A stretch of 44,673 nucleotides of DNA from an uncultured Prevotellaceae bacterium. GTDB taxonomy: Bacteria; Bacteroidota; Bacteroidia; Bacteroidales; Bacteroidaceae. A program made the translations under genes and the position numbers. The DNA lies in contig ONCQ01000020.1 in assembly GCA_900316355.1 (NCBI GenBank), positions 1-44,673 on the forward strand. The letters are read 5' to 3'. The notes under the pieces are model-generated. The model did not search any database. It was given only the letters and a program-made list of their open reading frames with translations, and was not told where the DNA came from. Shown here piece after piece: positions 5,587-26,242 of this stretch. The number at the start of each line of letters is the position of its first letter. Position 1 is the stretch's first letter.

Positions 5587-5729
5587 GTGCCCCCCCTTCG
5601 GCCCCCGAGGGGGCTACGACACTTCGCATGTTTCACTCACCCCTCACCCCTTAACCCTCACCCCTTTAACCTCTTCCCTCTTCCCCAAGTCTCCCCTCGG
5701 GGAGATTTAGAGGGGGCCGCCCCCTCCCC
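5587..5729 (+). repeat. Mosaic of three repeat types between aguB and aguA
   Basis: The spacer is almost entirely repeats: a GC palindrome at about 5589-5614, a degenerate CCCTCA/CCCTTAA array at 5635-5672, and at 5689-5718 a GC-rich palindrome. The reverse complement of the last (GGCCCCCTCTAAATCTCCCC and on) matches the element at 24905. The aguA start follows 12 bases later. Confidence 0.7.
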
Positions 5730-6920
5730 ATGTCCATCCATTTCACCCCCAGCACCCCCACCATCAGCGACCTCACCCTGCATTTGCAGATGGCCAAGCC
5801 CGTCGCTGGTCCCGAGCAGACCGAGATCCGCTCCACCTTCTTCCCTGCCGAATGGTTTCCCCAGAGCGGCGTGCAGCTGACGTGGCCCCATGCCGCCACC
5901 GACTGGGCCCCGCTGCTTGCCGAGGTCGATGACTGCTTCATCCGCATCGCCCTGGAGATTCTTGTTCGCAATGAACTTCTGCTCATCGTCACCCCCGAGC
6001 CCGACCGCATCAAGGGCCTCTTCCACGAGCGCATCCCCTCGCGCCTGCTGCCCCACGTACGCTATTTCGAGTGCCCCACCAACGACACCTGGGCCCGCGA
6101 CCACGGCTTCCTCACCCTCATGACCGAGTCCGGTCCCCGCCTCCTCGACTTCCAGTTCAACGGCTGGGGCAACAAATTCCCCTCCGATTTAGACAATGCC
6201 ATCAATAGTCAATTGTCAAATTGTAAATCGTCCAATTGTAAAATCAACGGTACTTACGAATCGCATTTGGACTTCGTCTTCGAGGGTGGCAGCATCGAGA
6301 GCGACGGCCGTGGCACCCTCATGACCACCAGTGCCTGCCTCCTCTCGCCCAACCGCAACCCCGACCTCAACCGCTTGCAGATCGAGGAGCGTCTGCTGCG
6401 CTGGTTCCATGCCGAGCGCGTGCTGTGGCTCGACCACGGCTATCTCGCCGGCGACGACACTGACAGCCACATCGACACCCTCGCCCGCTTCTGCCCTGGC
6501 GGCACCATCGCCTACGTGCAGTGCACCGACCCCGCTGACGAGCACTACGAGGCCCTCACGGCGATGGAGGAACAACTTAAGGGCTGGCCCCTCTCTAGGC
6601 CCCTCTCTAACTCCCCCCGTGGGGGGGAGGACTCTGTGTCCTCAGAGGGGCTCCTCATACCCCTCCCCATGCCGTCCCCCATCTACGACCCCGATGACGG
6701 CCATCGTCTGCCCGCCACCTACGCCAACTTTCTCATTATCAATGGTGCCGTGCTGATGCCCACCTATGGACAACCTGAGAACGACGACCTTGCTCGTCGC
6801 CAGCTACAGAAGGCCTTCCCCAAGTACGACATCGTGCCCATCGACTGTCGCGTCCTCATCCGCCAGCACGGCTCCCTCCACTGCTCCACCATGCAGTTTC
6901 CCGTCGGTGTCCTCGCGTGA
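5730..6920 (+). CDS. aguA: Agmatine deiminase with two repeat-derived insertions
   Basis: Cytoplasmic enzyme of the guanidino-group modifying fold that turns agmatine into N-carbamoylputrescine. Family motifs: TWPHAATDWA (51-60), NDTWARDHGF (118-127), FEGGSIESDG (184-193), WLDHGYLAGDDTDSHIDT (233-250) and the nucleophile in HGSLHCSTM (C385). Two segments do not look like the family. Residues about 158-173 come from an AATTGTAAAT-type repeat. Residues about 286-309 come from a GC-rich palindrome. Both keep the frame and lie between conserved blocks. The first 30 residues are also unusual, and ATG 5790 is an alternative start. It forms a pathway pair with aguB and abuts the convergent ispE (stop to stop, no gap). 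Confidence 0.95.
   Translation: MSIHFTPSTPTISDLTLHLQMAKPVAGPEQTEIRSTFFPAEWFPQSGVQLTWPHAATDWAPLLAEVDDCFIRIALEILVRNELLLIVTPEPDRIKGLFHERIPSRLLPHVRYFECPTNDTWARDHGFLTLMTESGPRLLDFQFNGWGNKFPSDLDNAINSQLSNCKSSNCKINGTYESHLDFVFEGGSIESDGRGTLMTTSACLLSPNRNPDLNRLQIEERLLRWFHAERVLWLDHGYLAGDDTDSHIDTLARFCPGGTIAYVQCTDPADEHYEALTAMEEQLKGWPLSRPLSNSPRGGEDSVSSEGLLIPLPMPSPIYDPDDGHRLPATYANFLIINGAVLMPTYGQPENDDLARRQLQKAFPKYDIVPIDCRVLIRQHGSLHCSTMQFPVGVLA
6202..6247 (+). repeat. AT-rich TTGTAAAT-type repeat inside aguA
   Basis: Three degenerate AATTGT(C/A)AAAT-like units. The tract closely resembles the intergenic repeat before nadC at 32767-32793 (AAACTTGTAAATTCGTAAAC). It is locally far more AT-rich than the surrounding gene and encodes a Ser/Asn/Cys/Lys-rich stretch. 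Confidence 0.75.
6586..6656 (+). repeat. GC-rich palindromic element inside aguA
   Basis: A repeated GGCCCCTCTCTA, then a hairpin CTCCCCCC-GT-GGGGGGAG, then GAGGAC-TCTGT-GTCCTC, closed by AGAGGGGC pairing with GCCCCTCT. It is the same family as the intergenic copy at 24905-24971. In frame it adds about 24 residues to agmatine deiminase. Confidence 0.85.
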
Positions 6921-11382: not shown

Positions 11383-12447
11383 ATGAGAAAAGACAACCAT
11401 CTCGTCATCATGGCCGGCGGCATCGGTAGCCGCTTCTGGCCCATGAGCACTGCCGACTGTCCCAAGCAGTTTATCGATGTGCTGGGCTGCGGACGCTCAC
11501 TACTTCAACTGACCATGGATCGCTTCGCGGACATCTGCCCGGCGGAGAATGTCTGGATTGTCACCAGCGCTCGCTACGCAGCCCTCGTGCATGAGCAGCT
11601 GCCCGAGGTGCCGGAGAACCATATTTTGCGAGAACCCTGCCGCCGCAATACAGCACCCTGCATCGCTTACGCCGCCTGGCGCATCAAAGCCTTGAACCCG
11701 CAGGCTAACATCGTCGTGTCGCCCTCGGACCATGTGGTGATGAACCCCGCTGAGTTCAAGCGCGTCATACTCTCGTCGCTCAAGTTCACGGAGGAGACCG
11801 ATAGCATCGTCACCCTAGGCATGAAGCCCACGCGCCCAGAGACGGGTTACGGCTACATACAGGCCGACTTGAGCGTCTCTAGTGCCCGAAACCGTGAGGT
11901 CTATCGCGTGGATGCCTTCCATGAGAAGCCCGAGTTGGCTGTGGCGCAGAAGTACATCAAGCGTAAGAACTTCTTCTGGAACAGCGGTATCTTCCTCTTC
12001 CGTGTCACCACCGTCGTGAATGCTCTGCGCATCTACGCCCCAGAGATTTCACAGATATTCGAGCCGCTTCTGTCCGTGTATGGCACCCCCGACGAGCAGA
12101 CCGCCATCGACCGCGAGTTCCCCAAATGCCCCAGCATCTCCATCGACTATGCCGTCATGGAGAAGGCTGAGGAAATCTTTGTCATGCCCTCTGATTTCGG
12201 ATGGAGCGACCTCGGAACATGGGGCTCCCTGCACGAGCATAGCGAAAAGGACGGCAATGGCAACGTCTGCATAGGACAGTGCATCGAGCTGCATGACTCC
12301 ATTGACTGCATCGTCCACACCATGCAGGAGAAGCGTGTCATCATCCAAGGACTCAACGGCTATATCGTGGCCGAGAAGGACGGTGCACTTCTCATCTGTC
12401 GACGCGAAGAGGAACAGCGTATCCGACAGTTCACGGAAGAAAAATAA
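11383..12447 (+). CDS. manC: Mannose-1-phosphate guanylyltransferase
   Basis: Makes GDP-mannose from mannose 1-phosphate and GTP, feeding GDP-fucose and mannose-containing surface glycans. The 354 residues correspond to the nucleotidyltransferase form without the phosphomannose isomerase domain. Motifs: MAGGIGSRFWPMS...CPKQF (10-29), NTAPCIAYAA, VSPSDHVV, FHEKPE, FFWNSGIF and SDFGWSDLGTWGSL. It sits four bases after the second protease, which suggests readthrough; the next gene begins 49 bases later. Confidence 0.95.
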   Translation: MRKDNHLVIMAGGIGSRFWPMSTADCPKQFIDVLGCGRSLLQLTMDRFADICPAENVWIVTSARYAALVHEQLPEVPENHILREPCRRNTAPCIAYAAWRIKALNPQANIVVSPSDHVVMNPAEFKRVILSSLKFTEETDSIVTLGMKPTRPETGYGYIQADLSVSSARNREVYRVDAFHEKPELAVAQKYIKRKNFFWNSGIFLFRVTTVVNALRIYAPEISQIFEPLLSVYGTPDEQTAIDREFPKCPSISIDYAVMEKAEEIFVMPSDFGWSDLGTWGSLHEHSEKDGNGNVCIGQCIELHDSIDCIVHTMQEKRVIIQGLNGYIVAEKDGALLICRREEEQRIRQFTEEK

Positions 12448-12496
12448 ATTGGAAGTTAAAGGAGTCAACCATAAAACAAAAGTACACAAAGAATAA

Positions 12497-13300
12497 ATGA
12501 GCAAGCAACAAGCAGAAAATCAGTTGGAGTCCATCCTCGACCTGAACGCCTCCAATGTGTGGACGGTCAACGAAAACGAAATCGTAGCATTGTGGGAAGA
12601 GGAGATGAAGGACGAGAGTTTCCCGCCCTATGAGGAGAAACTTCTGAACATCATACGTCTGGCCTACGAGGTCGTGCACTTCGACAGTGGCAACGAACGT
12701 GAGAGCGCCAAATACACCAATGGCGAATGGGCTACCTTCCCGCGCACCAACCTAAACAAAGGCATGGTGGCCATTCGCAAGCGCAACATCTCGCGCCTCA
12801 CAGACCTGAGCTACGAGAATATCCGCCACATCACGGCTGCCACGCTGCTGGAACTCATCAGCCGCAATTTCGGCGGCGGATGGGACAGCATCCCCCTGTC
12901 GATGAAGGACATCATCGAGAGCGGCTTCGAAATCAGCACCACCACGTTGCCCGCCACGCGCCTCCACATCGCAGGAGGCACCCTCGACCGTAAGGTGGCC
13001 GACGGCTTCGAAGTGCTGGAGGTGCCCAAGGGCACATGGGTGGAGGCTATCTTCGCCAAGAAAAAGGCACCTGCCACCAAGTTGCGATTGCTCATGGATA
13101 ATGAATACGATGAGGACGGTAACCGCCTGCAGTCCGATGATGATGACGATGACGAACGTGACGATGATCGCGAGGATGAGGTGGACGAGGACGATGTGCA
13201 GCCCACTGACGATGACACGTTCTACTCGACTTACGCCCCCGAGGCTGATGTCAAGGATGATGATGATGAAGACACAGGCGGACTCTCGGTGCTGGAATAA
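12497..13300 (+). CDS. Conserved-looking protein with a long acidic tail
   Basis: 267 residues. I do not recognise a family. Residues 1 to about 200 look folded: an N-terminal helix-rich part (ESILDLNASNVWTVNENEIVALWEEEM), a middle segment with LTDLSYENIRHITAATLLELISRNFGGGWDSIP and a basic part near KKKAPATKLRLLM. Residues about 208-262 are almost entirely Asp/Glu (runs of D), encoded by GAT/GAC/GAG codons. There is no signal peptide or membrane segment, so it is probably cytoplasmic. It lies between manC and a sodium symporter in one apparent operon (gap of 3 bases to the symporter). The acidic tail could bind basic proteins or metal ions, but this is a guess. Confidence 0.8.
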   Translation: MSKQQAENQLESILDLNASNVWTVNENEIVALWEEEMKDESFPPYEEKLLNIIRLAYEVVHFDSGNERESAKYTNGEWATFPRTNLNKGMVAIRKRNISRLTDLSYENIRHITAATLLELISRNFGGGWDSIPLSMKDIIESGFEISTTTLPATRLHIAGGTLDRKVADGFEVLEVPKGTWVEAIFAKKKAPATKLRLLMDNEYDEDGNRLQSDDDDDDERDDDREDEVDEDDVQPTDDDTFYSTYAPEADVKDDDDEDTGGLSVLE

Positions 13301-13303
13301 GCG

Positions 13304-14755
13304 ATGTCAGTAGGAATCATCCTGTTGGCATATTTCATGCTGTTGCTGATCATTTCGCGACGCACGGCAGGTAGCGCCAACAACGATACATTCTATAGAG
13401 GTGAGCGACGGTCCCCGTGGTGGGCCGTCGCCTTCGGTATGGTGGGAGCCAGCCTCAGCGGCGTCACCTTTGTGAGTGTCCCTGGTATGGTGCGCACCGC
13501 AGACATGACCTATCTGCAGATGTGTCTCGGCTTCATTCCCGGCTACGCCCTTGTGGCCTTCATCCTCTTACCCGTCTATTACCGCCTGCGCCTCACCAGC
13601 ATCTACACCTATCTCAACGAGCGCTTTGGGCGCACGAGCTACCACACGGGGGCTTCCTTCTTCCTCCTCTCGAAACTCCTGGGAGCCGCAGTGCGCCTCT
13701 ATCTCGTATGCGCCATCCTGCAACGCATGGTCTTCGATGCGCTGGGTTTGCCCTTTGCCCTCTCGGTGCTACTGTTGCTCGCCCTCATTTGGCTCTACAC
13801 CCGTCGCGGCGGCATCGGCACCATCGTGTGGACGGACTGCGCGCAGACGGTGGTACTCCTGTTGGCATTGGTGCTCATCTTAGCCGCCGTGCTCACGACA
13901 GAAGGGTGGGGCATTGGCGATGCTATCGCACAGATACACAGCAGCAAGATGAGCCGCATCTTCGTCTTCGACGATGTCAGCAGCCGCCAGTATTTCTGGA
14001 AACAGTTTGTCAGCGGCGCTTTCATCGTGGTGGTGATGACGGGCTTGGATCAGGACATGATGCAGAAGAACCTGACCTGTCGCACGCTGCGCGATTCGCA
14101 GAAGAACATGCTTGTCAATGGACTCCTCTACGTGCCCGCCAACCTCATGTTCCTTTCCTTAGGTGTTCTGCTTTATCTCTTTGCTGCACGCCATGCCATT
14201 GCCCTGCCGGCATCGGGCGATGAGCTGCTGCCCATGCTATGCTCGGGTGGCTATCTCGGACCGGCGGCCTCGCTGTGCTTCGCCCTGGGCATCTCGGCAG
14301 CTGCCTTCTCCAGCGCCGACAGCGCTCTCACGGCACTGACGACGAGCGCGTGTGTGGACCTATGTCATCGCCCTGACGACGAACGCCTGCGCCGATGGAT
14401 GCACGGTGTCGTGACGGTGGCTATCCTGCTGCTCATCCTGCTCTTTCGCGCCGTGAACAGCACCAGCGTCATCGATGCCGTGTATGTGATTGCCTCCTAC
14501 ACCTATGGCCCCCTGCTCGGTCTCTTTGCCTATGGCCTCTTCATGCCGCGCTGCTGGCATCCACGCGAGAGAATAGTGCCCCTCATCTGCGTGGCTTCCC
14601 CCGTCATCTGCTACCTCCTCTCCGCCTACGCCTCGGCGCGCTGGAACTACCATTTTGGCTACGAGCTGCTGCTAATGAACGGAGGCCTCACGGCACTCGC
14701 CTTGTGGATGGCATCCCGTCGGATAGACAGTGGGAAGACTAGCGCGGAGCGTTAA
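13304..14755 (+). CDS. Sodium:solute symporter family transporter
   Basis: 483 residues with about 12-13 hydrophobic segments, beginning at the N-terminus (VGIILLAYFMLLLIIS). The region FGMVGASLSGVTFVSVPGMV (about 45-64) and the following YLNERFG (about 105-111) are characteristic of the sodium:solute symporter (SSS) family. Sodium-site-like SSADSALTALT occurs around residue 335-345. The substrate cannot be assigned from sequence. It starts three bases after the acidic-tailed protein, the likely last gene of the operon beginning with the proteases or manC. Confidence 0.9.
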   Translation: MSVGIILLAYFMLLLIISRRTAGSANNDTFYRGERRSPWWAVAFGMVGASLSGVTFVSVPGMVRTADMTYLQMCLGFIPGYALVAFILLPVYYRLRLTSIYTYLNERFGRTSYHTGASFFLLSKLLGAAVRLYLVCAILQRMVFDALGLPFALSVLLLLALIWLYTRRGGIGTIVWTDCAQTVVLLLALVLILAAVLTTEGWGIGDAIAQIHSSKMSRIFVFDDVSSRQYFWKQFVSGAFIVVVMTGLDQDMMQKNLTCRTLRDSQKNMLVNGLLYVPANLMFLSLGVLLYLFAARHAIALPASGDELLPMLCSGGYLGPAASLCFALGISAAAFSSADSALTALTTSACVDLCHRPDDERLRRWMHGVVTVAILLLILLFRAVNSTSVIDAVYVIASYTYGPLLGLFAYGLFMPRCWHPRERIVPLICVASPVICYLLSAYASARWNYHFGYELLLMNGGLTALALWMASRRIDSGKTSAER

Positions 14756-14824
14756 TCTTCCCTAATCCTTTGCCATTTCAACAAAAATCTCTCCACTCTC
14801 GGCGCTCAACTCACAACTTTTTCG

Positions 14825-14832
14825 TACCTTTG
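14825..14832 (+). promoter_or_regulatory. -7 promoter box for map
   Basis: TACCTTTG lies only 5 bases before the map ATG at 14838. With the usual spacing, transcription would begin at or beside the ATG, giving a leaderless or near-leaderless mRNA. No clear -33 TTTG is seen. Confidence 0.65.
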
Positions 14833-14837
14833 CACCC

Positions 14838-15701
14838 ATGAACGGAAAAAAGAAGAATCGATGGACCATCATCAAGGGCCAGGAACTTACGGAGATGGAC
14901 CGCATCATTCTCGATGCACAGGAGCGTGGCAAGTTGGTGCCCTCACGCTCGCTCATCAAGACGCCCGAGCAGATTGAAGGCATCCGCAGGGCCGGCATCA
15001 TCAACACTGGCATCCTGGACATGCTCACCGACAAGATACACGCGGGCATGTGCACGCAGGAAATAGATGATATGGTGGCAGACTTCACTGTGGCCCACGG
15101 CGCCACATCGGCATGTCTGGGCTACGACGGTTTCCCCCGCTCATGCTGCACCAGCGTCAACGAAGTCGTCTGCCACGGTATCCCCAATGACTGGGAAGTG
15201 TTGGAGGATGGTGACATCATCAATGTCGATTGTACAACGATTCTCGACGGCTACTACGCCGATGCCTCGCGCATGTATGTCGTTGGTGGTAAGACGGATG
15301 CCAAGCGCCAGAAGCTGGTGGATGTGGCATGGGAATGTCTGAAGATAGGCGAGGAGGTGTGCTCCAAACCTTACGTCTATGTGGGTGACATCGGCAACGC
15401 CATTCAGAAGCACGCCCGCAAGAATGGTTTCTCTGTCGTTCGCGACCTCTCTGGCCACGGCGTCGGCCTTGAGTTCCACGAAGAGCCCGATGTGGACCAC
15501 TACGGCCACAAGGGCACGGGGATGCTCCTCGTTCCCGGCATGGTGTTCACCATCGAACCAATGATCAATATGGGTACATGGGAGGTGTTCTGCGACGAGG
15601 ACGACGGATGGACTGTGGTCACAGAGGACGAGCTGCCCAGCGCACAATGGGAGCACACGTTCGTGATGACGGAACATGGAGTGGAGGTGCTGACGCACTA
15701 A
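14838..15701 (+). CDS. map: Methionine aminopeptidase, type I
   Basis: Removes the initiator methionine from new proteins. The 287 residues show the full set of metal ligands of the pita-bread fold: D131 (NVDCT), D142 (ADASRM), H207 (GHGVG), E240 (FTIEPM) and E272 (QWEHTF), with the substrate histidine H113 in VCHGIP. The N-terminal 35 residues before SRSLIKTPEQIEGIR are extra relative to the minimal enzyme. An internal ATG at 14895 is possible if the very short leader at 14838 is not used. It precedes tsaD in the same direction, with a GC-rich hairpin element between them. Confidence 0.96.
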   Translation: MNGKKKNRWTIIKGQELTEMDRIILDAQERGKLVPSRSLIKTPEQIEGIRRAGIINTGILDMLTDKIHAGMCTQEIDDMVADFTVAHGATSACLGYDGFPRSCCTSVNEVVCHGIPNDWEVLEDGDIINVDCTTILDGYYADASRMYVVGGKTDAKRQKLVDVAWECLKIGEEVCSKPYVYVGDIGNAIQKHARKNGFSVVRDLSGHGVGLEFHEEPDVDHYGHKGTGMLLVPGMVFTIEPMINMGTWEVFCDEDDGWTVVTEDELPSAQWEHTFVMTEHGVEVLTH

Positions 15702-15703
15702 GA

Positions 15704-15740
15704 CCCACCCCCAACCCCTCCCGTGGAGGAAGGGGAATAA
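15704..15740 (+). repeat. GC-rich palindrome after map
   Basis: ACCCCCAACCCCTCC-CGT-GGAGG then AAGGGGAATAA. It is the same family as 33654-33690 and, in the opposite orientation, 15811-15846. It could act as a weak terminator, but no T-run follows. Confidence 0.7.
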
Positions 15741-15776
15741 TTTCCGTACAAGAAAAGACAATAAATAGATAATTAA

Positions 15777-16880
15777 ATGATAGAGAATATACAGCGAGCA
15801 AAGGATTCTACTCCCCTCCCTACAAAGGAGGGGCAAGGAGAGGGGGCTGCTGCAGGTGTGTCTCCTGTCACCATCCTCGGCATTGAATCCTCTTGCGACG
15901 ACACCTCAGCGGCTGTCATCCGCGATGGCTACCTGTTGTCGAACGTCACTGCATCGCAGGCTGTGCATGAGGCCTACGGCGGCGTGGTGCCTGAGTTGGC
16001 CTCGCGCGCGCACCAGCAGAATATCGTACCCGTGGTAGATCAGGCGTTGAAGCGCGCTGGCATTACGAAGGAAGAACTGTCGGCCATCGCTTTCACGCGC
16101 GGACCGGGCTTGATGGGTTCACTGCTCGTGGGCGTCAGCTTCGCCAAAGGGCTGGCTGCTTCGCTGGGCATCCCCATGATCGACGTGAATCATCTGCAGG
16201 GGCATGTGCTGGCACATTTCATCAAAGAAAGCGAAGTAGAGTCTTCTATTCCTCCTTTTCCTTTCCTCTGCCTACTCGTCAGCGGTGGCAATTCGCAAAT
16301 CGTACTCGTGAAGGCATACAACGATATGCAGATTATCGGTCAGACCATTGACGATGCCGCTGGTGAAGCCATTGACAAATGTTCCAAGGTCATGGGGTTA
16401 GGTTACCCCGGCGGCCCCATCATCGACCGCCTCGCGCGACAGGGAAACCCCGACGCCTTCCACTTTGCAAAGCCCGCCATCGAAGGCTACAACTATAGCT
16501 TCAGTGGACTGAAGACGTCGTTCCTCTATAACCTACGCGAGTGGATTCAGGAAGACCCTGATTTCATCGAGCACCATAAGGAGGATTTGGCTGCATCGCT
16601 GGAAAAGACCATCGTTGATATCCTGATGAACAAGTTGCGACGCGCAGCCAAGGACCTGAAGATAAAACATGTCGCGGTGGCCGGGGGTGTCAGCGCTAAC
16701 ACGGGTCTGCGCGAAGCTTTCAAGGACCATGCCCGTCGCTACGGCTGGACTATCTACATCCCCAAATTCAGCTATACTACCGACAACGCGGCCATGATAG
16801 CCATCACCGGTGCATTCAAATATGCCGACAAGGACTTCTGCCCTATGGAGGCTCCCGCATACAGCCGCGTGGCAATCTGA
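15777..16880 (+). CDS. tsaD: tRNA N6-adenosine threonylcarbamoyltransferase with repeat-derived N-terminus
   Basis: Catalytic subunit for t6A formation on ANN-decoding tRNAs, working with TsaB, TsaE and TsaC. Motifs: ILGIESSCDDTS near the start of the normal protein, SRAHQQNIVPV, the metal motif NHLQGHVLAH, VAVAGGVSANTGLR and YTTDNAAMIA. The 367 residues exceed the usual length by about 30. The excess is the N-terminus, where residues 11-24 (STPLPTKEGQGEGA) are encoded by a GC-rich palindromic element at 15811-15846. The family core begins at about residue 31. GTG 15858 (residue 28) is an alternative start that would avoid the insertion; no ATG lies between. Confidence 0.95.
   Translation: MIENIQRAKDSTPLPTKEGQGEGAAAGVSPVTILGIESSCDDTSAAVIRDGYLLSNVTASQAVHEAYGGVVPELASRAHQQNIVPVVDQALKRAGITKEELSAIAFTRGPGLMGSLLVGVSFAKGLAASLGIPMIDVNHLQGHVLAHFIKESEVESSIPPFPFLCLLVSGGNSQIVLVKAYNDMQIIGQTIDDAAGEAIDKCSKVMGLGYPGGPIIDRLARQGNPDAFHFAKPAIEGYNYSFSGLKTSFLYNLREWIQEDPDFIEHHKEDLAASLEKTIVDILMNKLRRAAKDLKIKHVAVAGGVSANTGLREAFKDHARRYGWTIYIPKFSYTTDNAAMIAITGAFKYADKDFCPMEAPAYSRVAI
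15811..15846 (+). repeat. GC-rich palindromic element inside the tsaD N-terminus
   Basis: CTCCCCTCCCTACAAAGGAG then GGGCAAGGAGAGGGGG. CCCCTCC (15813-15819) pairs with GGAGGGG (15827-15833). Its reverse complement matches the copy at 33654-33690. Its length is a multiple of three. Confidence 0.8.
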
Positions 16881-16900
16881 AATGGTGGACTCTCATCCCG

Positions 16901-16931
16901 TTCCCCAAAGGGGAAGACCTCGCAAGCGAGG
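16901..16931 (+). repeat. Two small hairpins after tsaD
   Basis: TTCCCC-AAA-GGGGAA at 16901-16915 and CCTCGC-AA-GCGAGG at 16918-16931. Both are perfect 6-base stems. They may end tsaD transcription or be another GC-rich repeat copy. Confidence 0.6.
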
Positions 16932-16947
16932 ATGAAAGGTTTATGAT

Positions 16948-16984
16948 GTTCAAGGGTTCAAGAAGTTCAATAGTTCAATTGTTT
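16948..16984 (+). repeat. GTTCAA-type short tandem repeat
   Basis: Four degenerate 8-9 base units of GTTCAAnn between tsaD and pncC (GTTCAAGG, GTTCAAGA, GTTCAATA, GTTCAATT). Confidence 0.65.
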
Positions 16985-17002
16985 AAGATATAAAAAAACA
17001 TT

Positions 17003-17506
17003 ATGAATATTCAGACGAAGTTAATCTCTCGTGAGATTAGTGAATATCTGTGGCGCTCGAACCAGACGGTGAGCACCGCTGAGAGTTGTACGGCCGGTAA
17101 AATCTCTGCCGCTATCGCCGCGCTGCCCGGTGCCAGTACCTACTTCCGCGGTGGCATCGTGGCCTATGCCAACGACCTGAAAGCGCTCTTGCTGGGCGTG
17201 CCCACCGCGCTGCTAGAAGAGAAGGGCGCCGTGAGTGAAGAGGTGGCGCGCGCCATGGCGGAAGGTGCTATCGAGCATCTGCAGACGCATTATGGCATCG
17301 CCGTCACGGGTTATGCCGGTCCCAGCGGTGGCCCCGAGGCTCCAGTGGGCACCATCTTTGTCGCGGTAGGAACGGCAGAACGCATCGAAGTGCGCGAACT
17401 CAAAGGCGACGACGGGCGCGAGGAAAATGTAGCACGCGCCACACTCACCGCACTGCAAATGCTGCTGGAGCGCTTGAAAAACGACTTTCCTCTTGGAGAG
17501 GAGTGA
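17003..17506 (+). CDS. pncC: Nicotinamide-nucleotide amidase (CinA C-terminal family)
   Basis: 167 residues forming only the C-terminal CinA domain, which deamidates nicotinamide mononucleotide to nicotinate mononucleotide in pyridine-nucleotide salvage. Motifs: STAESCTAGKISAAI (about 24-38), FRGGIVAYANDLKALLLGV (49-67) and AVTGYAGPSGGPEAPVGTIFVAVG (about 100-123). The usual AESCTGG motif is AESCTAG here. No signal peptide. It stands between tsaD and the ribosomal protein cluster, which has its own promoter. Confidence 0.9.
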   Translation: MNIQTKLISREISEYLWRSNQTVSTAESCTAGKISAAIAALPGASTYFRGGIVAYANDLKALLLGVPTALLEEKGAVSEEVARAMAEGAIEHLQTHYGIAVTGYAGPSGGPEAPVGTIFVAVGTAERIEVRELKGDDGREENVARATLTALQMLLERLKNDFPLGEE

Positions 17507-23154: not shown

Positions 23155-24900
23155 TTACCAGAAATACCAGTAGAAGCAAGCGCAGAGGCCGATGACAACG
23201 AGTGTGCCGACGATATCCCATACACCCCAGCTTTCACGAATGCTCTTCTTGAAGTCTGCGGTGAACGTGATAGCCTCCACCTGTGCCTTGGAGGGGGCGG
23301 GCGTGAAGAAGCTGACACATATCATCAGGGCGATGATGAATACCAGCAGCCAGCACTCGAAGATGAGCCAGTTGGTCTGCCAGAACCATGTGGTGTTCTC
23401 CCAAAATGCGCCGTCCATCACAGCCTTGCCGGAATCAGTGATGACATTCGTAACCAGACGGAGCATGCCGACGAGGAAACCGCCGATAAGGCCCCATTCA
23501 CCAGCCTTTGGCGTAATCTTCTTGGAGAAGATACCGAGCGTGAACACGGCCACCATAGCGGGAGCAATCAGTGACTGGATATCCTGGAGGTAGCTGTAGA
23601 GGTTGCCCATAGACATCATCACAGGCATCCAAGCCAGACCCAGCAACACGACAACAACGGTAGCCATACGGCCTACGAAGACGTAGTGGGCTTCGCTCAT
23701 GCCCTTCTTCATGGGCTTGTAGAAGTCCTCTGTGAAGAGTGTTGCACAGCTGTTGAAGAAGGCTGCGAGGGAAGCTACGAGAGCGCAGACGAAACCGATG
23801 GTGACAATACCCTTGATACCAGCGGGCAGGATATTCTTCACCATCATGGCGAAGGCACCATCGGTGCTCTCATGATTGGTGATATCCATCACGATGCCGC
23901 TATCGGGGTTCTGCGAGAGGGCGTAGGCAATCATGCCTGGGATGAGGAACATGAAGCAGGGCAGAATCTTGAAGAATCCGGCTGCGATGGTACCGCGACG
24001 TGCACGGGCAATGACGGCTGCATTGTCCTCACCAGGTACCTGACCAAGTACACGTTGTACGATGTGCTGGTCTGTACACCAGTACCAGAAGCCGATGATG
24101 GAGGCGCCGAGGAAAACGACATAGCCAGGGAATTGCGGGTACATCGGGTCGGCGGGATCGGTGTGGAACATGTGGGTGGTGCCGAAGCCTTCGTGAGCGG
24201 CATTGCAGGCGGTCATCATGTTAGCCCAACCGGCAGTGATGCTGCCGTCGCCAAGAGCGGCCAGACCAAGGAAGAGTACCAAGAAGGAACCTATGATAAG
24301 GATAGGCGTCTGGATGGTGGAGAGCGTCATCACACCCTTCATGCCGCCGAAGACGGTGAAGATGGCAGTGATGGCAATCAGACCAATGGCACCATACCAG
24401 AAAGGAATTCCCAACAGGTACTTGAAGAAGATGCCGCCCGTGAACGCTGTCACGCTGACCTTAGTGAGCACATAGGCAACCAGCGTGATGATGCTCAGCC
24501 AGGATCCCGTACGCTGAGTGTAGCGGAACTTCAGGAAGTCGGGCATCGTGATAATCTTGCCCATCTTGTTGATTAGCAACTGGTAGAAAGGTACGAACAG
24601 CCAACCCAGAATCAGGATCATCCAACCCTGCATCTCCCAGTGAGCCATACCTACGCCGTCCTTGGCGCCTGTGCCGGCGAGACCTACGAGGTGCTCCGAA
24701 CCGATGTTGGCAGCAAAGATGGCCATACCAATCACGTACCAGGGTTCGCCCTTACCGAAGAGATAGGCAGAAGAGTCTTCGCCTTGTTGTGACTTTTTGT
24801 CTTTCCAGATGGCATACCATACGGCAGCCACGACACCTAAGAGGCCGACGACGAGAATCGCCCAGTCCAGCCAGATGAATTCATGTGAATTCCAGTTCAT
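23155..24900 (-). CDS. Sodium/sugar symporter (SSS family), probable arabinose transporter
   Basis: 581 residues with about 14 membrane segments in the SGLT-like branch of the SSS family. Motifs: FAANIGSEHLVGLAGTGAKDG (about 63-83), ITMPDFLKFRYTQRTGSWLS, FGGMKGVMTLSTIQT, WYWCTDQHIVQRVLG and sodium-site-like SLAAFFNSCATLFTEDFY. Its place between galM and araR suggests L-arabinose (or galactose) uptake, and the equivalent Bacteroides gene is often called araP. A palindromic element ends four bases upstream of its ATG. Confidence 0.92.
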   Translation of the reverse strand: MNWNSHEFIWLDWAILVVGLLGVVAAVWYAIWKDKKSQQGEDSSAYLFGKGEPWYVIGMAIFAANIGSEHLVGLAGTGAKDGVGMAHWEMQGWMILILGWLFVPFYQLLINKMGKIITMPDFLKFRYTQRTGSWLSIITLVAYVLTKVSVTAFTGGIFFKYLLGIPFWYGAIGLIAITAIFTVFGGMKGVMTLSTIQTPILIIGSFLVLFLGLAALGDGSITAGWANMMTACNAAHEGFGTTHMFHTDPADPMYPQFPGYVVFLGASIIGFWYWCTDQHIVQRVLGQVPGEDNAAVIARARRGTIAAGFFKILPCFMFLIPGMIAYALSQNPDSGIVMDITNHESTDGAFAMMVKNILPAGIKGIVTIGFVCALVASLAAFFNSCATLFTEDFYKPMKKGMSEAHYVFVGRMATVVVVLLGLAWMPVMMSMGNLYSYLQDIQSLIAPAMVAVFTLGIFSKKITPKAGEWGLIGGFLVGMLRLVTNVITDSGKAVMDGAFWENTTWFWQTNWLIFECWLLVFIIALMICVSFFTPAPSKAQVEAITFTADFKKSIRESWGVWDIVGTLVVIGLCACFYWYFW

Positions 24901-24904
24901 AGAA

Positions 24905-24971
24905 AGTGGCCCCCCTCTAACTCCCCGAGTGGGGAGGACCCTAAAGGGGCTTGGGTCTATTGTTACTAATG
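24905..24971 (-). repeat. 67-base palindromic element before the symporter gene
   Basis: AGTGGCCCCCCTCTAACTCC, a CTCCCC-GAGT-GGGGAG hairpin, outer GCCCC...GGGGC pairing and the tail GGGTCTATTGTTACTAATG. It is a sister copy of 21495-21561 and is placed the same way relative to the next start codon. It is related to the insertion inside aguA. Confidence 0.88.
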
Positions 24972-25042: not shown

Positions 25043-26242
25043 TTATTTCACGGAGAATTTGTATGCGCAGTGGCTGAAGTATGTCTCGCCGGGCTTCAGG
25101 TTGGCTGAAGGCCAGTTTTCGCCTGCGCGGTGCGGGCTATCAGGATACTTCTGGCTCTCGAGGCAAACGCTGACGTGCTTCGGATACTTGATGCCGTGCT
25201 TGCGCAGGATGTCAGCATCGCGGCCTACGCCTTGGAAGTTGCCGGTATAGACCTGAATGCCGGGCTCGTTGGTGAAGACCTCCAGCAGAATACCTGTCTC
25301 AGGGCTGTAGAGGCTGGCAGCTACCTGGCTGTCATCGCCGCGATAGGTGTCCATGTCGTAGGTGTTCAGGCAGAAGTTGTGATCAACACCTGTGGCGTTC
25401 TTTATCTGTTCAAACGTGGTGTCGTTGACGACCTCTTCAAGAGGTCGCGGCTCGCGGAAGTCAAATGGAGTGCCCTCGACAGAAGCAATCTCGCCTGTGG
25501 GGATGTAGTAGATATCGGACGGGGTGAAGTTGTCTGCATTGACATAGAGAACCATATTGGTACCCGCGCGTGAGGGGTCGCCGTTGAGGTTGAAGTAGCA
25601 GTGGTTGGTTTGGTTGATGACGGTCTCCTTGGTGGTGGTAGCCTCCCAGGTGATGTCGAGGATATTGTCGTCGGTGAGCTTGTAGGTTGTCACAGCAGTT
25701 ACTTCGCCGGGGAACCCGTTGTCGCCATCGGGGCTTACGATGGTCAGTTTCAGCGTCTGGTCATCAACCTGCTCAGCATCATATACCTGATACTGCCAGC
25801 CGGTGGGGCCGCCGTGGAGGCAGTTATCGCCGTCGTTGGCCACCAGTTCGTAGGTCTCCTCACCAATCGTGAATGAGTGTTTGCTAATGCGGTTAGCATA
25901 GCGGCCGATGCTTGCGCCGTAGTCGCTGGGAGAGTTCTGGGAGTCGGCGTACTGAGCGACATTGTCGTAGCCCAGCACCACATCCTTCAGGTTGCCTTCA
26001 CGGTCGGGCACCATGATGCTGACCACGCGGCCGCCGAAATTGGTAATGCACACCTCCATGCCGTTGGCATTGGTCAGCGTGTATAGGGCTGTAGCCTTAC
26101 CGCCGATAGTGTCAATAAACTGTTCTGGATTCAGACCGCTAACCGTAAGCTCGGTAGTTGCAGCGGGTTTACGATCGGTGCAGGCTGCCATCAGAACAAC
26201 GGCTGCGGCAGCAGAAACAAAACCTTTCACGAAAGTCTTCAT
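25043..26242 (-). CDS. galM: Aldose 1-epimerase, lipoprotein form
   Basis: 399 residues: a lipoprotein signal peptide (MKTFVKGFVSAAAAVVLMAAC, lipobox LMAAC at residue 21) then the galactose mutarotase domain. Motifs: IGRYANRIS, NCLHGGPTGWQYQVYDA, INQTNHCYFNL (catalytic His), DHNFCLN and EVFTNEPGIQVYTGNF (catalytic Glu). The signal places it outside the inner membrane, where it would interconvert sugar anomers before uptake. It heads the arabinose part of the island, downstream of a promoter and a palindrome. Confidence 0.95.
   Translation of the reverse strand: MKTFVKGFVSAAAAVVLMAACTDRKPAATTELTVSGLNPEQFIDTIGGKATALYTLTNANGMEVCITNFGGRVVSIMVPDREGNLKDVVLGYDNVAQYADSQNSPSDYGASIGRYANRISKHSFTIGEETYELVANDGDNCLHGGPTGWQYQVYDAEQVDDQTLKLTIVSPDGDNGFPGEVTAVTTYKLTDDNILDITWEATTTKETVINQTNHCYFNLNGDPSRAGTNMVLYVNADNFTPSDIYYIPTGEIASVEGTPFDFREPRPLEEVVNDTTFEQIKNATGVDHNFCLNTYDMDTYRGDDSQVAASLYSPETGILLEVFTNEPGIQVYTGNFQGVGRDADILRKHGIKYPKHVSVCLESQKYPDSPHRAGENWPSANLKPGETYFSHCAYKFSVK

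Follow-up and report, generated by a model that had tools for sequence, protein, structure and literature searches.

The stretch of DNA analysed here, 44,673 nucleotides long and called the window below, is contig C31 of a 3.16-Mb genome with 69 contigs. The gene aguA for agmatine deiminase lies at positions 5730-6920 on the plus strand and encodes 396 residues; its assignment draws on the open reading frame (ORF), Pfam family PF04371, Foldseek and AlphaFold. The PF04371 domain is complete in a Pfam scan, the best solved-structure match by Foldseek is 1zbr, and the closest named records (among the best 80 of 576 matches) come from uncultured Prevotellaceae or Bacteroidaceae assemblies, some of them from ruminants. 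Within the gene lies a palindromic element of a repeat family termed B (6586-6651, plus strand), which is read in frame as AguA residues 286-308, WPLSRPLSNSPRGGEDSVSSEGL. A GC-rich palindrome in frame had been claimed for this place by a sequence-only reading, and it was located there, C/G-rich and with limits now set at 6586-6651.

The element begins with two tandem copies of a 12-nt tail unit, GGCCCCTCTCTA, at 6586-6597 and 6598-6609 on the plus strand; similar duplications of 12-nt tails are found in copies from genome G015. The other parts, to which no strand is assigned, are a main hairpin CTCCCCCCGTGGGGGGGAG at 6611-6629 with the stem CTCCCCCC/GGGGGGAG, a second hairpin arm GAGGACTCTGTGTCCTC at 6627-6643, which matches the inner arm GGACTCCGTNTCCTC of paired copies, and a closing inverted foot AGAGGGGC at 6644-6651, which is the complement of GCCCCTCT. 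Judged by this layout, the aguA copy resembles an inverted pair that has lost an internal part and whose 12-nt tail has been duplicated in tandem. Computed folding of the single strand gives a closed stem with inner hairpins at -36.7 kcal/mol, a value unexceptional for the composition (z -1.43 versus shuffles).

All columns invariant in 41 AguA proteins are kept in the window protein, including the His, Asp and Cys motifs, which we take to be the catalytic ones. Together with the complete PF04371 domain, this agrees with the early claim of intact catalytic motifs. Modelling had been proposed to see whether the insert is a surface loop; in the AlphaFold model (alignment of 41 sequences, mean pLDDT 88.6) it appears as a low-confidence loop between helix 273-285 and strand 309-313. 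Block means of pLDDT over residues 281-310 are 86, 55 and 66, so that the insert falls at 55-66, and the core is mostly above 90. The N-terminal 30 residues of the model are likewise of low confidence.

We aligned 110 AguA sequences, comprising the window protein, 29 loci (the best from the 45 of 61 genus genomes with a match) and 80 further proteins (the best 80 of 576 matches); 104 of the 109 other sequences are distinct. The spacing from MEEQLK to PLPM is 26 residues in the window protein and 13 residues in 102 of the 109 others, and the remaining seven loops measure 11, 11, 14, 14, 17, 23 and 46 residues, the odd lengths among close relatives being those of L036 (23), L037 (46) and L063 (17). 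According to the sequence-only reading, an ordinary loop would be indicated if a homologous peptide occurred in AguA of distant genera. No SPRGGE-like peptide occurs in any of the 109 other AguA sequences (104 distinct), and an ordinary loop of the AguA family was rejected on this comparison. The gain of about 24 residues first claimed holds for the coding length, since about 23 residues (286-308) are encoded, but not for the net gain over the usual loop, which is only 13 residues because native loop residues are missing and the element stands in their place. Among the relatives compared, no empty site with exact junctions was found, and the flanking loop sequence has diverged.

The same loop is occupied differently in related genomes. 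In AguA of G016, 85% identical to the window protein, it contains a C/G palindrome of another kind, for a net length difference of one residue, and in AguA of G003 an AT-rich stretch. In G015 and at L063, a C/G palindrome lies in another AguA loop, and that of G015 belongs to family B in the opposite orientation. AT-rich stretches also lie in frame in AguA loops, such as GTCAATTGTCAAATTGTAAAT at 6205-6243, which occurs as a single copy in the window. In-frame inserts of other kinds, AT-rich or of a GGAGCAGGG-type tandem repeat, were seen in AguA loops at L035 (from G003, second site in aguA) and L070.

Two other elements are present in the window. A related copy with a shorter stem at 24905-24947 (plus strand) lies just upstream of the minus-strand ORF 23155-24900, and it is intergenic because it falls between this ORF and the minus-strand ORF 25043-26242. 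It shares the order of foot, C/G stem, GGAC and foot with the aguA element, as expected from the earlier assignment of both to one family. A family A-like hairpin, of a variant with a two-base loop, lies at 5680-5717 on the minus strand (copy C31:5691-5715), just upstream of the aguA start codon. Sites of the CCCCTCTNNNNCTCCCC type (at most one mismatch) number three in the window versus 0.09 expected from 100 shuffles.

Two palindromic families and their host genes

Pattern searches with at most two mismatches were made for family B, CCCCTCTCNNNCTCCCCCCNTGGGGGGNAG, and family A, CCCCTCTAAATCTCCCCGTNAGGGGAGACTT, the latter pattern requiring a four-base loop, together with control patterns, that for family B being its pattern read backwards. 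Family B is present in 15 of 61 genus genomes, with 71 copies in G015 alone, and family A has 37 copies in 10 of the 61. The controls gave no match in the 61 genomes for either family, and a chance palindrome was rejected accordingly. Among 399 genomes drawn from the taxonomic family, 9 genomes in 4 of the 30 genera carry family A. Near-identical copies are dispersed over many unrelated genes and several species, and family B often occurs as inverted pairs.

A census covered family A in full (37 copies) and 105 copies of family B from six of the 15 B genomes (G015, 67 of 71 copies; G067, 14 of 17; G000, 11 of 15; G016, 6 of 8; G064, 4 of 6; G066, 3 of 10). A search for copies inside genes had been suggested from the sequence; 35 of the 37 A copies and 91 of the 105 B copies prove to lie within an ORF of 200 codons or more. 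The other 2 A and 14 B copies lie outside such ORFs, and we count them against the reading of insertion in genes. Separately, ten family A-like two-base-loop hairpins (L001-L010) are clustered on contig C15 of G000 (12277-17388) with TTAAGGG/TTGAGGG-type repeats around them, mostly outside long ORFs.

The 35 long-ORF copies of family A sit in 32 ORFs, all of which contain a Pfam family at or above the gathering score, and host names used here are taken from these domains. For family B, 53 of 68 scanned host ORFs contain one; the 68 are a subset of B hosts, include two overlapping reads (L014 and L016) of one lacZ-like ORF and contain a few hosts found via a shorter core pattern. Lacking such a family, some of the other 15 ORFs may be spurious. 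Hosts of family A include DNA primase, CTP synthase, UvrA, arginyl-tRNA synthetase (ArgS), topoisomerase and a poly(A)-polymerase-type nucleotidyltransferase, as well as CarA, CarB, FeoB, CbiD, NAGLU and a TP_methylase-CbiC ORF. Hosts of family B include PheT, ValS, CysS, Rho, MetH, a ClpC-type ATPase, chorismate synthase (AroC) and shikimate dehydrogenase, and further QueA, KsgA, lipoamide-dehydrogenase-type enzymes, pyruvate formate-lyase, asparagine synthase and LacZ. Some host ORFs recur with both families. An NanM-symporter ORF has A in G033, B in G000 and G064, and B elsewhere in the ORF in G067; for the TP_methylase-CbiC ORF, the family is A in G000 and in G003, and B in G064. In some ORFs, an element lies between two domains, GcpE and DUF559 (L222:5749-7419 and L248:210-1946) or TP_methylase and CbiC (L012:193-2187 and L381:689-2194), as if it had fused neighbouring genes.

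Loops of other hosts were compared at 30 AroC, 30 ClpC-type and 29 ValS loci. Chorismate synthase of G015 has SPPRGESERG where the loop of relatives is an unrelated stretch of similar length, and in G000 a different C/G palindrome fills this loop. In a loop of the second ATPase domain of ClpC-type proteins, G015, G016 and G019 have different palindromic inserts, and other sister species have unlike stretches. In aguA, aroC and clpC, sister species differ in the palindrome or other insert that fills a given loop. In the alignment of ValS, two inverted family B units of G015 and G016 (L249, L250) flank a native segment, KVIVAENEEEAYKLALETYPIL, which is present in similar form in relatives without the units. 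The cysS gene of G016 (L248:1950-3536) also has two inverted B units around a native-looking stretch, its likeness to ValS being one of spacing. Both arrangements look as if an inverted B pair had landed around a native stretch.

Reading frame of the intragenic copies

Copies within genes lie in frame, with a strong preference for one frame in family A and for two in family B. Frame R1 (SLPSRGDLEGS) is used by 33 of the 35 long-ORF copies of family A, when about 8 are expected if open frames are used equally, and 31 of the 37 copies have exactly four open frames. R1 is closed by a stop in three copies, namely both long-ORF exceptions and one in an ORF of 121 codons. After collapsing related flanks and copies of the same ORF, 27 of 29 host clusters remain in R1. 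Stop codons alone are insufficient as explanation, since 30 of 34 A copies keep at least two open frames over about 110 nt, and a stop-codon filter as the only cause of frame bias was rejected on these counts. Twelve further A copies came from the draw of 399 genomes, and some of their hosts are orthologues of hosts already counted. Of the 11 located in long ORFs, 9 read R1 and 2 read F1 despite an open R1, which speaks against a strict lock.

For 77 internal copies of family B, the frames R0 (LPPTGG), F0 (SPRGGE), R1, R2, F1 and F2 are used 46, 21, 9, 1, 0 and 0 times, versus about 15, 15, 15, 9, 15 and 8 expected. Every one of the 105 copies has F1 open; with copies near ORF ends included, one in 91 uses it. 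The aguA copy of the window is in F0. In G000, 14 copies have a two-base loop, and each of them is found either outside long ORFs or no more than about 20 codons from an ORF end. As pattern A accepts the four-base loop alone, the frame lock applies to the variant with that loop.

The preference for certain frames may reflect selection at the protein level. When variation was compared between codon positions in family A, purifying selection left no clear trace. A further-reaching suggestion, which we put forward as tentative and rather doubtful, is that family A is mobile DNA living almost only as a protein-coding module, in one orientation and frame. If true, either the peptide itself would be selected or spread of the element would be coupled to coding sequence, and these bacteria would routinely use transposable DNA to reshape loops of essential proteins.

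Origin of the aguA insert

The explanation that we consider very probable as a whole runs from insertion of a non-autonomous repeat through persistence as an in-frame loop peptide to later decay. On this view, a small non-autonomous palindromic repeat spreads through this Bacteroidales genus by inserting new copies of itself, of which the aguA insert would be one. Copies in genes may persist where they are read in frame, free of stops, as a peptide of mild character, in a surface loop or linker that tolerates it, and native loop residues would then be lost or replaced. Afterwards the element may decay, here by tail duplication and internal deletion. Each copy would accordingly have arisen by insertion, and a transposase presumably moves the palindromes.

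One alternative is that the elements are ordinary REP or REPIN sequences moved by TnpA_REP (RAYT-like) proteins, with intragenic copies as a by-product. We lean against this, yet give it serious weight. Y1-type TnpA proteins, with motifs that we take to be those named HUH and YxxxNP, were found with profile A2 in 40 of 61 genomes, including all 15 with family B and 25 of the 46 without it (Fisher p 0.001, with genomes treated as independent of kinship). Three tnpA matches in G015 have B copies at about 350 bp, about 1.1 kb and, for the match on C21, about 420 bp, and the frequent inverted pairs of family B resemble REPINs. Against this, the genome-level association ignores kinship, and a search with PF01797, which is less sensitive and missed many tnpA, gave TnpA in 23 of 61 genomes and in 7 of the 15 with family B. 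Of 22 tnpA loci inspected, 15 have a readable TnpA ORF; flanks of these 15 are mostly without family A or B, with family B in the flank of two, and most hairpins within or next to tnpA have other sequences, three being GTAG-tagged and inside the gene. Moreover, no GT[AG]G/CGTC tag stands at the hairpin foot in inspected A and B copies, and most copies are intragenic, unlike REPs. The three GTAG-tagged hairpins lie in frame inside tnpA genes (L357, L364, L368) and are of the kind described as in-frame REP insertions in tnpA genes in excerpts of PMC6006769, with which the TnpA motif names were also compared.

It is improbable that the elements function at the RNA or DNA level, as mRNA hairpins, attenuators or protein-binding sites, with their coding being incidental. 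Strong C/G hairpins would suit such a role, as would the short distance by which the intergenic copy at 24905 precedes the start of an ORF. However, intragenic frame and strand preferences have no RNA-level reason, the folding of the aguA copy is unexceptional for its composition (z -1.43), and the hosts have no obvious function in common. Least credible is an ordinary variable AguA loop turned C/G-rich and palindromic through local slippage, for although the loop varies in some close relatives (23, 46 and 17 residues in L036, L037 and L063) and the tail is a tandem 12-nt duplication, the same 30-nt sequence recurs exactly or with one or two mismatches in many unrelated genes of 15 of 61 genomes with no control match, and these dispersed near-identical copies refute slippage for the core of the insert.

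Comparison with known elements

In-frame palindromes are known above all from Rickettsia, with scattered cases elsewhere. The present data add, in a gut lineage of another phylum, two related and mostly intragenic families in universally conserved enzymes. Their frame preference exceeds what stop codons require, and its source is directly testable. In these genomes, the toleration and uptake of new loops by proteins can be studied as a natural experiment on a large scale, and caution is advised, because protein loops in such genomes can be repeat-derived. A search of open-licence full text in PubMed Central found no description of this palindrome family in Bacteroidales, in agreement with the sequence-only reading, which knew of no named equivalent.

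That reading had likened the insert to Rickettsia palindromic elements (RPEs). The likeness is supported, since many unrelated genes contain in-frame copies of this family, with insertion itself as the probable origin. The known relatives are not RPEs alone but include intragenic REPs (PMC3733652). RPEs are palindromes that lie in frame in conserved genes of unrelated kinds and encode a conserved peptide (Ogata 2000/2002, as cited in excerpts of PMC10969869, PMC2229807 and PMC3767692), and the same excerpts place RPE inserts in solvent-exposed regions, with the same loops struck in different species. In our families, unrelated protein genes likewise contain in-frame palindromic repeats, and the encoded peptide is conserved (SLPSRGDLEGS in 33 of 35 long-ORF copies of family A). 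In the AguA model the insert is a predicted loop of low confidence (pLDDT block means 55-66), which may be exposed. Excerpts of PMC3767692 model RPE inserts on tRNA ribosyltransferase-isomerase and phenylalanyl-tRNA synthetase, and both kinds of enzyme also carry copies here. Unlike RPEs, the present elements have Bacteroidales rather than Rickettsiaceae as hosts, their C/G-run sequence is visibly different as judged by eye, family A is almost confined to one frame, and long ORFs contain 91 of 105 B and 35 of 37 A copies, versus a reported half or so of the RPEs.

Intragenic GTAG/CGTC REPs were described in 2013 as hairpins of 20-40 bp, single or as inverted dimers, some wholly inside ORFs (excerpts of PMC3733652). 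The same excerpts derive a 'double foot' REP from central deletion of an inverted dimer, and the aguA copy has this 'double foot' layout; inverted dimers of family B are a second likeness to REPs and REPINs. In contrast, inspected copies are without a GTAG/CGTC tag beside the hairpin, and the large majority of both families in ORFs of at least 200 codons (91 of 105 and 35 of 37) differs from REPs, which those excerpts describe as mostly intergenic.

MITE-like repeats (ERIC/RU-1, RU-2, RU-3 and Correia) sometimes form in-frame gene fusions and are primarily intergenic, according to excerpts of PMC2229807 and PMC2759123, in which Correia elements of one size class lie within genes and those of the other class between genes. 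In this genome, family A appears to show a similar split between its two loop lengths. Unlike ERIC, RU and Correia elements, our families have a visibly unrelated sequence, by eye, and no target duplication was recognised in the flanks of inspected B copies. We therefore separate families A and B from REPs, because they are without the tag and the extragenic habit, and from RPEs, because they belong to another phylum. We file them as RPE-like protein-coding palindromes in Bacteroidales, neither RPE nor REP.
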